IMG/VR virus record: IMGVR_UViG_3300012008_000012
Span: 1-43,371 of that record
Length of the DNA: 43,371 nt
Strand: one strand, 5' to 3'
Source of the DNA: a virus
This document shows, in pieces, positions 394 to 43,371 of this stretch. A program made the position numbers and the translations under genes. Numbering within the stretch: the first letter of the stretch is position 1; every line of letters begins with the position of its first letter. The notes below the pieces were generated by a model that saw only the letters and a program-made list of their open reading frames with translations, made no database searches and was not told where the DNA came from.

Positions 394-596
394 CGCTCTT
401 CGATCGCTTTATCGACCGAGGCGGGTTCCCGCGTGCCGGGCTAGCGAACGGAGTGCGCATGGCCGACTCGTTCCGTCCGAAGAAGGTCTGGTACCAGCGA
501 CGGTTTCTGATCGTCTGCGCGAACTGCGACTCACGCTTCGAGACGCACTGCCAGATCCATCTCGCCTACCACTGCCCCGGGAAGTGCGACCGGTGA
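390..596 (+). CDS. Small zinc-ribbon protein (68 aa)
   Basis: GTG at 390 overlaps the small-terminase stop, and a strong Shine-Dalgarno (AAGGAGG, 374-380) sits 9 bases upstream, which decides this start over the internal ATG at 459. The C-terminal half has a CxxC followed by further His and Cys residues (CANC, HCQIH, HCPGKC), a likely zinc-binding knuckle. Its role is unknown. It is one of about ten tiny Cys-pair proteins in this genome. Confidence 0.6.
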   Translation: MTLFDRFIDRGGFPRAGLANGVRMADSFRPKKVWYQRRFLIVCANCDSRFETHCQIHLAYHCPGKCDR

Positions 597-1316
597 CCTT
601 GCACGCCTCCGAGATCCTGGCCGGCCTCCCTCCCGTCCTGACCGGCCGCCTCGAGTTCTGCGCGTGCGGCCACGTCCCGGGCGATCACGTTGCAGGCCGC
701 GGCTGCCAGCACGTCAACAAACCGTCCAAACGCTTCTCGGCGAGCGCGCGCTGCCACTGCTCGCGCTTCGCCGTCCACCCCGAGCTCGCGGACGCGGAGG
801 TGTTCCTGACGAAGCAGATGAACCACGTCGTGCGCAAGCAGGGGCTCTCGCTCGAACAGGTTGAGCGCGACGAGCTTCTGCAGGTGATGCGGATCTCGCT
901 ATGGCGTGCGTCGGCCAAGTTCGACTCGCGCTCGCACATCCGCTTCGGCAGCTTCGCGAGCTACGAGCTGTACCAGGACGCGATCGACGAGATGCGCCAC
1001 TCGCGGATGTTCGGCCGACAAGGCCAGTACCGTTTGCAGCCACTTGTCGCACACGACGAAGACGACTCCTGGTTCATCGACCCCGTCGACCCACTCGAAA
1101 ACGACGAGACCCCTGCGGCGCGACTTCGAGCGGATCGACTGGACCGCACTATCCCCGAGCTCGTTGTCGACCCTCCGGACCCTTGGGACATTGATGCTCG
1201 ATGGGCATTCACAGACCGAGATCGCGAAGCGCTCCGGACTGTCGTCGTCGGTGGTCGCGGCTCGCGTGAAGGCACTGCGCATAGAGCTCGCGGCACAGCT
1301 TGGGCTGACGGTCTAA
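593..1316 (+). CDS. Zinc-ribbon/sigma-70-like transcription factor with apparent +1 frameshift
   Basis: GTG 593 overlaps the previous stop. Residues 20-60 form a Cys/His zinc-binding module (CACGH...H...C...CHC). Residues 70-145 resemble sigma region 2, with a FDSRSHIRFGSFASYEL stretch. Frame 2 then loses sense near residue 173. From about 1113 frame 3 encodes a clear region-4-like helix-turn-helix (LDGHSQTEIAKRSGLSSSVV) ending at TAA 1314-1316. Joining the frames at the CCCC run 1110-1113 gives about 240 residues. Without the shift, frame 2 runs to TGA 1346-1348 with a meaningless tail. Sigma-like RinA/ArpU-type proteins upstream of terminase genes activate late transcription in other phages, and I infer the same job here. 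The shift may be programmed, a mutation or an assembly error. Confidence 0.65.
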
Positions 1317-1344
1317 CCGCTCTCATCTCAACCAAGGAGGCCGC

Positions 1345-1929
1345 ATGAGCACCACGCCGGTTAAACGACGCACGTTCTCACCCGAGTTCGCGGGCAAGGT
1401 GACCGTCGACCGCACAAGCCTGCAGATGAGCGACACGCTCGCTTTCGACGAGTGGTTGCAGCTTGGCCGGCAGTTGACCGAGGTTGGCGACTCGATGGCG
1501 TGGTGGGTCGGCGACTGGATCGAGCAGGGCACCGTCGCCTACGGCGCCAAGTACGAGGCTGGGCTCGCGGTGATGGGGCTCGCGGAGTCGACGCTGAAAA
1601 GCTACGCCTACCTGTCGCGGCGGTTTACGACGTTCCGACGTCGGAACCTTTCGTGGGGACATCACGAGGTCGTGGCCGCTCTCGTCGAGGCGGAGCAGGA
1701 CGCGTTCCTCGACTCGGCCGAGAAGCACGCGTGGTCGGTTCGCGATCTCCGCGACGCCGTGCGGGACTCGCGCGCGTTGCCCGTCTTCGATGAGACGCGG
1801 ATCACGCTCGAGCAGCTGAAGCTCGTCGTCCCGCACGACACGGCGGAGCGGTGGAAGACCGCTGCCGACCGTGCAGGGCTCGCGTTCCCGGAGTGGTGCG
1901 CGAAGACGCTCGACGCGGCTGCCGCGTGA
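1345..1929 (+). CDS. LmbU-like DNA-binding regulator (194 aa)
   Basis: The start at ATG 1345 has an AAGGAGG Shine-Dalgarno at 1335-1341. The central part (WWVGDWIEQG, YGAKYEAGL, LSWGHHEVVAAL) matches the pattern of LmbU-family regulators, known from actinobacterial antibiotic clusters and also seen in phages. These carry a helix-turn-helix and act as transcription regulators. Lying between the sigma-like gene and the packaging genes, it may tune late expression; that is inference. Confidence 0.6.
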   Translation: MSTTPVKRRTFSPEFAGKVTVDRTSLQMSDTLAFDEWLQLGRQLTEVGDSMAWWVGDWIEQGTVAYGAKYEAGLAVMGLAESTLKSYAYLSRRFTTFRRRNLSWGHHEVVAALVEAEQDAFLDSAEKHAWSVRDLRDAVRDSRALPVFDETRITLEQLKLVVPHDTAERWKTAADRAGLAFPEWCAKTLDAAAA

Positions 1930-4824: not shown

Positions 4825-4834
4825 ACGAACCTAG
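4825..4834 (+). promoter_or_regulatory. Start-associated motif copy 2 (ACGAACCTAG)
   Basis: It ends 3 bases before the portal GTG at 4838, in the intergenic gap after the large terminase. No Shine-Dalgarno is visible at that start. Confidence 0.75.
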
Positions 4835-7647: not shown

Positions 7648-7657
7648 ACGAACCTAG
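7648..7657 (+). promoter_or_regulatory. Start-associated motif copy 3 (ACGAACCTAG)
   Basis: It ends 3 bases before GTG 7661 of the Mu G-like gene, the third and last copy of the ACGAAC variant. Confidence 0.75.
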
Positions 7658-8126: not shown

Positions 8127-8136
8127 CCGAATCTAG
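8127..8136 (+). promoter_or_regulatory. Start-associated motif copy 4 (CCGAATCTAG), before tRNA
   Basis: It ends 3 bases before the predicted mature 5' base of tRNA-Met (8140). No coding start follows it. This copy argues that the motif acts on transcription or RNA processing rather than on translation. Confidence 0.75.
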
Positions 8137-8139
8137 GAG

Positions 8140-8212
8140 TGCGCCGTGGAGCAACTGGTAGCTCGCCGCCCTCATAAGGCGGAGGTTCCGCGTTCGAGTC
8201 GCGGCGGCGCCA
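8140..8212 (+). tRNA. tRNA-Met (anticodon CAT)
   Basis: The cloverleaf can be drawn by hand. Acceptor 8140-8146 pairs with 8205-8211 except the first T:C pair. The D stem is GAGC/GCTC with loop AACTGGTA. The anticodon stem is CCGCC/GGCGG with loop CTCATAA, anticodon CAT. The variable loop is AGGTT. The T stem is CCGCG/CGCGG with loop TTCGAGT. Discriminator A is at 8212 and CCA is not encoded. CAT could be elongator Met or lysidine-modified Ile. The unpaired first acceptor position would suit an initiator tRNA, but the three G:C pairs typical of initiators are not seen in the anticodon stem. Confidence 0.9.
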
Positions 8213-8219
8213 TCGCAGG

Positions 8220-8229
8220 CCGAATCTAG
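8220..8229 (+). promoter_or_regulatory. Start-associated motif copy 5 (CCGAATCTAG)
   Basis: It lies 7 bases after the tRNA and just before the putative tail-terminator frame. GTG 8232 comes 2 bases later but is out of frame with the downstream protein. Confidence 0.7.
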
Positions 8230-8290
8230 GGGTGTTATCGACCTCTTTGCCCCCAGGATTGACACGTCGCTCGCCAGCCTGCGCGCGAAC

Positions 8291-8773
8291 ATGCCGACGC
8301 GGATAGCGGCGTTTAACGCGGAGAACAACGGCGCTCAGCTCACTGTCCCGGCCGACGACGGTGGCGCGCTCTCACCACCACGCCCCTCATTGGGCTACGT
8401 CTTCGGGGGTCTTCCGAGGGCGGGCGCAGGCGAGTTCCCGAAGATCGAGGTCGCGATCCCTGACGCGCAAGTCGACAACCTCTCGCTCGCGCACATCGAA
8501 GGCGACCTCACCTCGAGCATCGTCGTCGCGTGTTGGGCTGGGCGCACGTCGGGCGAGGACTTCCCCACCGTTTACCGACAAGTCTTGGGATTCGCGCGTT
8601 GCGTCACCGAGGTTTTGCTCGTCCCTGATGCGATCTATCCGCGTGAGACGGTCGAGCGGATCCGCTACGCGATTTCAGCCAACCCGGACCGCCGCGAGCG
8701 CGACGCAATGGAAACTTTCAGCTTCGGGGCGTTCGCGTTCTTTTCGACTGCGGGGGTTGCGCAGAGGCCCTAG
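8291..8773 (+). CDS. Putative tail terminator / head-tail completion protein
   Basis: From ATG 8291 the frame gives 160 residues. Coding character extends upstream to about 8234 (VIDLFAPRIDTSLASL), directly after motif copy 5, but no ATG, GTG or TTG exists in that frame after the TAG at 8159. The true start may be a non-standard GTT at 8234, or a 1-base change separates GTG 8232 from the frame. The name comes from position after the Mu G-like gene, size and an alpha/beta pattern typical of tail-terminator proteins; no diagnostic motif. The 3' end overlaps the minus-strand endonuclease gene by 56 bases. Confidence 0.55.
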   Translation: MPTRIAAFNAENNGAQLTVPADDGGALSPPRPSLGYVFGGLPRAGAGEFPKIEVAIPDAQVDNLSLAHIEGDLTSSIVVACWAGRTSGEDFPTVYRQVLGFARCVTEVLLVPDAIYPRETVERIRYAISANPDRRERDAMETFSFGAFAFFSTAGVAQRP

Positions 8774-9428: not shown

Positions 9429-9476
9429 CGAGGGGTCAACTCCTTCGGTGACACGGGGGCGGGCCGACCACAATCG

Positions 9477-9763: not shown

Positions 9764-9773
9764 CCGAATCTAG
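9764..9773 (+). promoter_or_regulatory. Start-associated motif copy 6 (CCGAATCTAG)
   Basis: It ends 3 bases before GTG 9777 of the protease/scaffold gene. After the minus-strand insertion this site could restart plus-strand late transcription. Confidence 0.75.
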
Positions 9774-9776
9774 GTC

Positions 9777-11315
9777 GTGCCCGCCCTCGAGACCGTAGAC
9801 ATCCCCGCCGTTGAGATCATGCGATCTGGCGGCCCCGTCTACGCGATCGGGTCCCCCGCCGGCGGCGACTACTACAGCCGCGAAGACCTCGAGGGCATGG
9901 CGGCAGCGCACGTCGCCTTGGGCGACGAGATCCGCGCGCCGATCAAGCTCGGCCACTCCGACCGGCAGCAGCTGCTCGCGAACAGCGGCCTCACGAAGGG
10001 CGAGATGCCCGCCGCGGGCTGGCTCGACAGCGCGACCTTCCGCATCGAGGACGCCGAGGACGGTTCCGCGCGTCTGCTCGCCGACGCGAAGGCTGTCCCG
10101 AAGAAGCTGGCCGACCTGATGGAGGTCGGCGCGTTCCGCACCCGCTCGAGCGAGATCCGCTCGTACACGTCGCAGAAGACGCAGGGCGAGTACCCGTGGG
10201 TCGTCGACGGGCTCGCGCTGATGGGTGAGCAGGTGCCCGCGATCCAGACATTGGACGACGTGCACAAGCTGTACCAGCGCGCCGAGATCGGCGAGCCCGC
10301 CGCCGAGACGTCGTTCGTGATCCGCCACAACGCCGCCGCCGCCATGACGATGCCCGACGGTGTCAAGGCCTGCTCGATGAAGGGCGTCGCCGGCTACAGC
10401 GGCGGCGTTCTCTGCCACGTCCATGACGGCACCGACGCCGGCAAGGCGACCGCGCTCGCGAAGGCGAAGACCGACGCTGCGGCTGCACGCAAGAACGCGG
10501 CAGGCGCGGTCGTCTGGACGCCTGACGGTTCGCTCGAGGACTTGCGTTCCGACCTGAACGAGGCGCTGAACCCGTCCGGCTACGACATCCCCGGCATCCC
10601 CCGCTTGTGGGTGCGTGATGTCGCACGTTCGAGCGATGTCGCGCTCGTCTCGGAGGGCTGGGATCCCGACGACGAGGCGTGGGTTGTGCCGTTCACCATC
10701 GACGCCGCGAACGACGCCGTCGTACCCGCGCCACGCTCGACGTGGACCGCTGCCGAGCAGACCTGGGTGGCCGCTTCCGCGGAGCTCTCTCGCAAAAACT
10801 CGGCGCGCGCCGAATCTAGGCACGTGGAGCTCACACTCACCGACGAGCAGGCAGTCGAGGTTCGCACGACCCTCGGCCTGGAGGCAGACGCGGAGATCAC
10901 CGCCGACGTGCTCGTCGAAGCGTCCACCGCTCGCGCGAACGAGCTCACCGCAGCGAAGACCGCTGTGGCCGACGCCGAGACGCGCAAGAACGAAGCTTCC
11001 GACCTCGTCAAGACCGTCCGCAAGCTCGAGGCCGACGTGAAGGTCGAGCAGACCCGCCGCTTCGAGCTCGAGCGCGACACCGACCTCACCGCCGCCGTCC
11101 GCGCCGGGAAGATCGACCCCGCGCAGCTGGACGACTGGCAGAAGGATTACGACGACAACCAGGCCGGCACCCGCCGCATCCTGGAGCGCCTCAAGTCTGA
11201 CCCGGATCTCGTCCGCGAGTTCGGACGCGACGACGGCGACGACACCGAGACGCAGACCGACGAGGAGTACCAGCGCGACTTCGAGCGGCGCCACGGCATG
11301 AAGGCGAGCGTCTGA
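9777..11315 (+). CDS. Mu I-like prohead protease fused to scaffold (512 aa)
   Basis: The N-terminal region (about residues 1-180) fits the Mu gpI-type prohead protease family: APIKLGHSD and the RTRSSEIRS, WVVDGLALMG elements. A linker of about residues 190-340 follows. The C-terminal 163 residues are a charged coiled coil (AAKTAVADAETRKN type) typical of scaffolds. The arrangement matches Mu, where scaffold Z is made from an in-frame internal start of I. GTG 9777 is preceded by motif copy 6. The decoration and major capsid genes follow immediately. Confidence 0.8.
   Translation: MPALETVDIPAVEIMRSGGPVYAIGSPAGGDYYSREDLEGMAAAHVALGDEIRAPIKLGHSDRQQLLANSGLTKGEMPAAGWLDSATFRIEDAEDGSARLLADAKAVPKKLADLMEVGAFRTRSSEIRSYTSQKTQGEYPWVVDGLALMGEQVPAIQTLDDVHKLYQRAEIGEPAAETSFVIRHNAAAAMTMPDGVKACSMKGVAGYSGGVLCHVHDGTDAGKATALAKAKTDAAAARKNAAGAVVWTPDGSLEDLRSDLNEALNPSGYDIPGIPRLWVRDVARSSDVALVSEGWDPDDEAWVVPFTIDAANDAVVPAPRSTWTAAEQTWVAASAELSRKNSARAESRHVELTLTDEQAVEVRTTLGLEADAEITADVLVEASTARANELTAAKTAVADAETRKNEASDLVKTVRKLEADVKVEQTRRFELERDTDLTAAVRAGKIDPAQLDDWQKDYDDNQAGTRRILERLKSDPDLVREFGRDDGDDTETQTDEEYQRDFERRHGMKASV
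10810..10819 (+). promoter_or_regulatory. Start-associated motif copy 7, inside the protease gene
   Basis: CCGAATCTAG lies within the protease coding sequence, where it encodes part of RAESRH, and ends 4 bases before the in-frame GTG 10824. It marks the nested scaffold start. Confidence 0.75.
10824..11315 (+). CDS. Nested scaffold protein, Mu Z-like (163 aa)
   Basis: In-frame internal GTG 10824 would yield the coiled-coil C-terminal third of the protease fusion as a separate protein. This is the classical lambda C/Nu3 and Mu I/Z arrangement, in which many scaffold copies are needed per protease. The start is supported by motif copy 7 just upstream, in a position where the codon choice of an ordinary coding region would not be expected to produce it. 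Confidence 0.65.
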   Translation: MELTLTDEQAVEVRTTLGLEADAEITADVLVEASTARANELTAAKTAVADAETRKNEASDLVKTVRKLEADVKVEQTRRFELERDTDLTAAVRAGKIDPAQLDDWQKDYDDNQAGTRRILERLKSDPDLVREFGRDDGDDTETQTDEEYQRDFERRHGMKASV

Positions 11316-13654: not shown

Positions 13655-13664
13655 CCGAATCTAG
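13655..13664 (+). promoter_or_regulatory. Start-associated motif copy 8 (CCGAATCTAG)
   Basis: It ends 3 bases before GTG 13668. The TAG inside it would also stop a 10-codon ATG frame opened at 13632. Confidence 0.75.
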
Positions 13665-20998: not shown

Positions 20999-21008
20999 CC
21001 GAATCTAG
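20999..21008 (+). promoter_or_regulatory. Start-associated motif copy 9 (CCGAATCTAG)
   Basis: It ends 6 bases before ATG 21015, the largest spacing among the protein-coding copies. Confidence 0.7.
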
Positions 21009-22214: not shown

Positions 22215-22224
22215 CCGAATCTAG
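22215..22224 (+). promoter_or_regulatory. Start-associated motif copy 10 (CCGAATCTAG)
   Basis: It ends 3 bases before GTG 22228 of the endolysin and is the last copy in the genome; no copies occur in the early half. Confidence 0.75.
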
Positions 22225-43144: not shown

Positions 43145-43371
43145 GCCGCCACCGCTTCGACCACGCCCAGGCGCTCGATGTCTACCTCGCCCTCGAGCCG
43201 CCCGGGCGCACGTACGCCGCGGTAGCGCGAGCGGTGGGCTGCAGCGAGCAGTCCGTTCGCCGCTGGGCGCGCAGCCTGAAGTGGGCGGAGAAGCTCGCCG
43301 CTGCCGACGAGCGTGCGATGGCGCGCTCGCTGAAAACGCGAGAGCAGCGCGTCGCGGATGTGCTGAAGCTC
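43141..43371 (+). CDS. Small terminase subunit-like protein, N-terminal part
   Basis: GTG 43141 overlaps the upstream gene by 4 bases. A helix-turn-helix (YAAVARAVGCSEQSVRRW, about residues 25-42) starts the protein; the frame is open at the window end and continues at base 100 of the left end after the shared 98-base overlap. Together with bases 1-393 it forms the full gene. Confidence 0.65.
   Translation, partial: MSRHRFDHAQALDVYLALEPPGRTYAAVARAVGCSEQSVRRWARSLKWAEKLAAADERAMARSLKTREQRVADVLKL
43274..43371 (+). repeat. Right copy of 98-base terminal direct repeat
   Basis: Identical to bases 2-99. Indicates that the linear window is a circular or circularly permuted molecule opened inside the small-terminase gene. 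Confidence 0.9.

Follow-up and report, generated by a model that had tools for sequence, protein, structure and literature searches.

A probable sigma-70-type factor encoded across two reading frames upstream of candidate leaderless late promoters in an uncultured phage

Ahead of the terminase gene of an uncultured phage lies a locus whose sigma-like halves fall in different reading frames, which raises the questions of whether the halves belong to one sigma factor, how the second half is translated, and which promoters such a factor would serve. The window, that is, the whole stretch analyzed, is the IMG/VR virus record IMGVR_UViG_3300012008_000012 in its full length of 43,371 bases. It carries an exact terminal direct repeat of 98 bases (2–99, identical to 43274–43371), and therefore is probably a complete genome from a circularized assembly. 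The structural module is siphophage-like (terminase, portal, protease, major capsid, tape measure), with capsid and portal about 25%–32% identical to those of actinophages; integrase, RecT, SbcCD-like proteins, and DnaB are also encoded. Pattern scans of viral records and genome contigs, together with tblastn in phages, yielded only two true relatives, the IMG/VR contigs L002 and L004, both syntenic with the window, and the sigma gene was compared across these three sequences.

The upstream half is encoded on the plus strand in frame 2 (593–1111), from a GTG at 593 with a Shine-Dalgarno interaction of −7.4 kcal/mol, through a Cys/His motif and sigma region 2 to an acidic linker. The Cys/His-rich segment (659–760, plus strand) is putatively zinc-binding: eight of its residues (C23, C25, H27, H32, C38, H40, C54, and C56) are invariant across the three sequences. 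The label "zinc ribbon" used in the first-pass annotation is thus reasonable, although no Pfam zinc model matches the segment. It is followed in the same frame by ERDELLQVMRISLWRASAKFDSRSHIRFGSFASYELYQDAID, which corresponds to sigma region 2 (residues 76–138; 818–1006, plus strand) according to TIGR02937, the FliA/WhiG profile, Pfam Sigma70_r2, and fold matches. The N frame alone scores 20.6 bits against TIGR02937 (E 3e-4) and 22.1 bits against FliA_WhiG, and matches Sigma70_r2 with E 9e-4. Its AlphaFold model is of low confidence (pLDDT 48), with Foldseek and VIA matches that are nearly all to sigma domain 2. Between the window and its relatives, the N part is 48%–54% identical. The acidic linker, QPLVAHDEDDSWFIDPVDPLENDET (1034–1111, plus strand), was assigned to frame 2 by codon log-likelihood and GC content by codon position; over 1034–1109, the log-likelihood ratio is +18 bits in favor of frame 2, and taking +1 coding as the null gives P 0.000.

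The downstream half, a region-4-like helix–turn–helix, is found on the plus strand in frame 3 (1113–1316, with TAA at 1314–1316), where the sequence DWTALSPSSLSTLRTLGTLMLDGHSQTEIAKRSGLSSSVVAARVKALRIELAAQLGLTV is supported by profile, fold, and codon-position conservation. On its own, this frame reaches only 12.5 bits against TIGR02937 (E 0.09), and its AlphaFold model, of moderate confidence (pLDDT 76), is a generic helix–turn–helix for which sigma domain 4 is among several equal families, other helix–turn–helix families fitting as well. Identity between the window and L004 at codon positions 1, 2, and 3 is 51%, 67%, and 40%, against a shuffled expectation of about 27%, 27%, and 40%; with position 2 far above expectation and position 3 at chance, conservation of the C frame is at the protein level.

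When the halves are joined, the protein matches the NCBIfam sigma70-ECF profile TIGR02937 with 30.8 bits (E 2e-7), residues 76–235 covering positions 14–164 of the 165 of the model, so that region 4 follows region 2 collinearly over nearly the whole profile. TIGR02937 is matched by all three members, as are Pfam Sigma70_r2 (best E 7e-5) and Sigma70_r4_2, with sigma profile scores below the curated cut-offs. The sigma similarity first claimed for both parts is therefore borne out, including in a profile search with the joined protein, the kind of check that had been proposed. In tblastn against phages, the alignment with SPO1 gp2.21 likewise runs collinearly through the junction (E 0.02). With a degenerate DNA pattern for region 2, coding K[FY]D..R..[IV]RF..[YF]A, eight matches were obtained in genome contigs; the five that were read out, and one viral match, are all sigma factors by sequence. 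The locus thus most likely encodes a phage sigma-70-type factor, with the domain order of ECF- and FliA-like proteins: region 2, acidic linker, region 4.

The break between the halves is a shared character. In the window, frame 2 runs from 593 and frame 3 from ~1113, both with profile support, which upholds the original description of two parts separated by +1; in L002 and L004, too, the helix–turn–helix lies +1 relative to the frame of the N part, so that looking for the break in homologs, as had been suggested, returned the same offset in all three sequences. A search for other frame breaks in either direction among the genes shared with the relatives found none. Since the split recurs in both relatives and no other shared gene is broken, a plain assembly error is unlikely, and we rejected it as the whole story, the exact junction in the window being less secure. 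We bracket the break at ~1034 to ~1137, and codon statistics place the change at about 1085–1125; the interval of +1 change of reading (1085–1127, plus strand) holds both CCCC (1110–1113) and an in-frame CTT-C (1124–1127). The junction had been put at CCCC, and the four cytosines are indeed there, but they are one candidate point within the bracket rather than a demonstrated slip site.

How the region-4 half is reached appears to differ between the window and its relatives. At the break, the +1 frame of L002 and L004 holds ATGGGCAACACC, whose ATG is preceded by Shine-Dalgarno sequences of −8.4 and −10.4 kcal/mol; among all ATGs of the three sequences, only about 6% and 2%, respectively, reach such strength. 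Frame-0 codons around this ATG are rare (AAT 2.6%, CAT 9%, CAA 2%–8%, GGG 16%), codon usage switches frame at the ATG, and linker codon usage favors the +1 frame in both contigs. A separate overlapping gene explains the relatives better on these grounds, and makes a frameshift unnecessary in them: Their region-4 half is most likely a separate subunit, translated from the internal ATG, which has a ribosome-binding site of its own. Near the junction of the window, no frame-3 start with a good Shine-Dalgarno sequence was found, the only start being TTG 1044 (+0.6 kcal/mol). Lacking an internal ATG, and with its linker coded in frame 2, the window is likelier to use a +1 ribosomal shift, which is also the simplest route to region 4. 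Several specific sites were considered and set aside. CCCC does not qualify as an SPP1-like CCC-N site, given that the frame-0 codons are ACC (1109–1111) and CCT (1112–1114), and an in-frame CCC-G at 1082–1085 would be followed in +1 by the very rare AGA, with poor codon statistics. No slippery heptamer common to the three sequences was seen; two of them, the window and L002, have an in-frame CTT-C, which L004 lacks. After the break, no stimulatory RNA structure was detected (fold z 0.04). The earlier suggestion of a programmed shift that sets a fixed ratio of products therefore keeps the offset, conserved in three of three sequences, but not a shared slippery site or an RNA structure, and the relatives have an internal ATG. 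The unshifted frame-2 reading continues through 1112–1348 (plus strand) to a TGA at 1346–1348, which overlaps the start codon (ATG, 1345) of the next gene. We rejected this tail as a second real protein, its similarity being weak and following the conservation of the C frame. The overlap of stop and start reads ATGA in the window (1345–1348), and GTGA at the corresponding place in L004.

Our reading of the locus, which we hold tentatively and at slightly less than even chances, is a two-frame sigma factor, with region 4 as a separate subunit in the relatives and attached through a +1 shift in the window, that directs late promoters. Under this mechanism, ribosomes in the window would shift at about 1085–1125 and make some full-length factor besides the unshifted region-2 product, while the relatives would start the region-4 half at the internal ATG. 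Two alternatives concern the coding. All three phages could encode a split two-subunit sigma in overlapping genes without any frameshift, the C subunit of the window beginning at a weak or noncanonical start (TTG 1044 or CTG 1113). The internal ATG, its Shine-Dalgarno energies, the rare frame-0 codons around it, and the linker usage of the relatives all speak for this, as do precedents for split sigma factors in T4 gp55/gp33 (PMC2988020) and SigO/RsoA (PMC8103513); however, the window has no such ATG, and a separate C gene starting at TTG 1044 is disfavored, since that codon lacks a Shine-Dalgarno sequence and the linker at 1034–1109 is coded in frame 2 and not in the C frame. We regard this arrangement as possible but rather unlikely. 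Alternatively, an assembly error of one base or a recent mutation could have broken what is naturally an ordinary fused sigma gene at the window junction, with the split of the relatives a separate event. Frame-2 coding is clean to ~1110, where frame 3 begins, leaving a reasonable acidic linker between the domains; the break point of the window differs from that of its relatives; and codon usage in the C region of the window is atypical (log-likelihood ratio −33 bits), falling outside both nulls, so that a damaged or erroneous junction is conceivable. The SPP1 reference sequence, too, needed correction of several frameshifting indels (PMC6316719). Yet at the homologous place the relatives are also shifted by +1, other shared genes are intact, and four cytosines make a short homopolymer; to this explanation we assign little probability.

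The promoters that the factor would serve are suggested by the motif CGAAYCTAG, which occurs 10 times in the window, always on the plus strand, against 0.27 copies expected. The sigma gene had been described as preceding all ten copies and the terminase, and mapping of the copies confirms that every one lies downstream. An ATG follows at +12 from the copy at 2223–2231 (CGAACCTAG) and at +15 from that at 21000–21008. GTG stands at +12 from the copies at 4826–4834 (portal gene), 7649–7657, 9765–9773 (head protease), 13656–13664, and 22216–22224, and at +13 from that at 10811–10819, inside the head protease ORF, where it would open a nested, scaffold-like reading frame, a placement that both relatives share. 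At 8128–8136 the motif is followed by a tRNA gene beginning at +12 (8140), and at 8221–8229 by a gene start that is noncanonical. In the relatives, 10 of 10 and 9 of 10 copies are oriented with the late genes, and across the three phages 22 of 29 copies have ATG or GTG at +12 or +13, with no second element near −35 over the set of 29. The best reading of these patterns is a −10-only promoter that gives leaderless late transcripts, CGAATCTAGACCGTG being a candidate promoter sequence of this type. In mycobacteria, an RTG at the start of the transcript suffices for translation (PMC4633059).

What links the sigma-like gene to the motif is genome position and joint conservation in three of three phages. 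From these, we infer that the factor reads the CGAAYCTAG sites: it would bind host RNA polymerase and direct it to the ten sites, which would act as −10-only promoters for leaderless late mRNAs and a tRNA. The protein could instead bind DNA as a sigma-like protein in some other role, leaving the motif to a different factor of phage or host; this alternative is compatible with any of the coding models. It draws on the fact that position and joint conservation are the sole link between sigma gene and motif; against it, the phage record contains a single Sigma70_r2-like gene, at the spacing from the start that a primary-sigma −10 element (TANNNT) would have, the motif does not resemble one, and motif and gene co-occur in every one of the three phages. 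We judge this alternative improbable. If the sigma factor does read the motif, a further and doubtful step would be a gated late sigma, in which a region-2-only product is complemented by the region-4 part through the +1 shift (window) or the internal start (relatives), the choice of frame setting the timing or level of the ten leaderless −10-only late promoters.

Known systems resemble the locus in part. As in T4 gp55/gp33, functions like those of regions 2 and 4 are encoded apart (probably so in the relatives) and late promoters are −10-only, whereas here the halves overlap in one locus, a Cys/His motif is added, and the genes are leaderless; among the matches listed from PHROGs, Pfam, NCBIfam, and tblastn in phages, similarity to gp55 or gp33 was absent. 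The two-subunit SigO/RsoA of Bacillus subtilis also divides sigma2 and sigma4 between two proteins, but is bacterial with its own small regulon, and neither overlapping frames nor phage late promoters are reported for it in the literature found. ECF and FliA-WhiG sigma-70 factors (TIGR02937, TIGR02479) share the domain order and, once the halves are joined, the end-to-end profile match, in contrast to the scores below curated cut-offs, the Cys/His extension, and the coding over two frames of the phage proteins. Among cultured phages, the collinear match is to the sigma-like gp2.21 of Bacillus phage SPO1 and is shared only by close SPO1 relatives; at 27% identity, gp2.21 is distant, and the match covers residues 93–229 only, not the Cys/His part. 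SPP1 gp17.1/gp17.1* is another phage gene with a +1 shift at a proline codon run, in-frame CCC slipping before U (PMC6316719), while in the window the shift is a candidate, frame 0 reads CCCC as ACC-CCT, and the site shows no conservation. Late regulators of the PBSX Xpf type and of the RinA/ArpU type, the latter having been the initial comparison for the locus, agree in the position of a sigma-like gene ahead of the terminase and in position only, the RinA/ArpU family profile being absent among the matches listed at E up to 0.1–1.

If our reading is true, an uncultured phage with actinophage-like structural genes has a sigma factor that is compact and naturally split, and about thirty −10-only leaderless promoters, nearly identical to one another, go with it across three phages. 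Split and fused forms of sigma would then interchange through overlapping frames, and promoter recognition by region 2 alone, as well as the need for region 4, would be directly testable.

Individual copies of the motif show further features. The tRNA-Met gene and its motif (together window 8128–8212) lie inside the structural module, with the motif 12 bases before the first base of the gene, which suggests transcription from a late promoter at the mature 5′ end; a search for RNA families in the window found only the tRNA. Within the head protease ORF (9777–11315), a motif precedes a GTG in the window and equally at L007 11471 and L008 11376, and the segment 10811–10824 resembles a promoter that would serve a nested scaffold protein. 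In L007, the TAG of one copy closes the frame of the gene that follows, so that a start near the motif (9438–9460) is possible only at AGC or ATC (ATC at +12). The L007 protein is 84% identical to that of the window, where 8221–8240 contains no in-frame ATG, GTG, or TTG, the next ATG being at 8291; after the 8221 motif and the L007 copy, translation may begin at a non-AUG codon of a leaderless mRNA.
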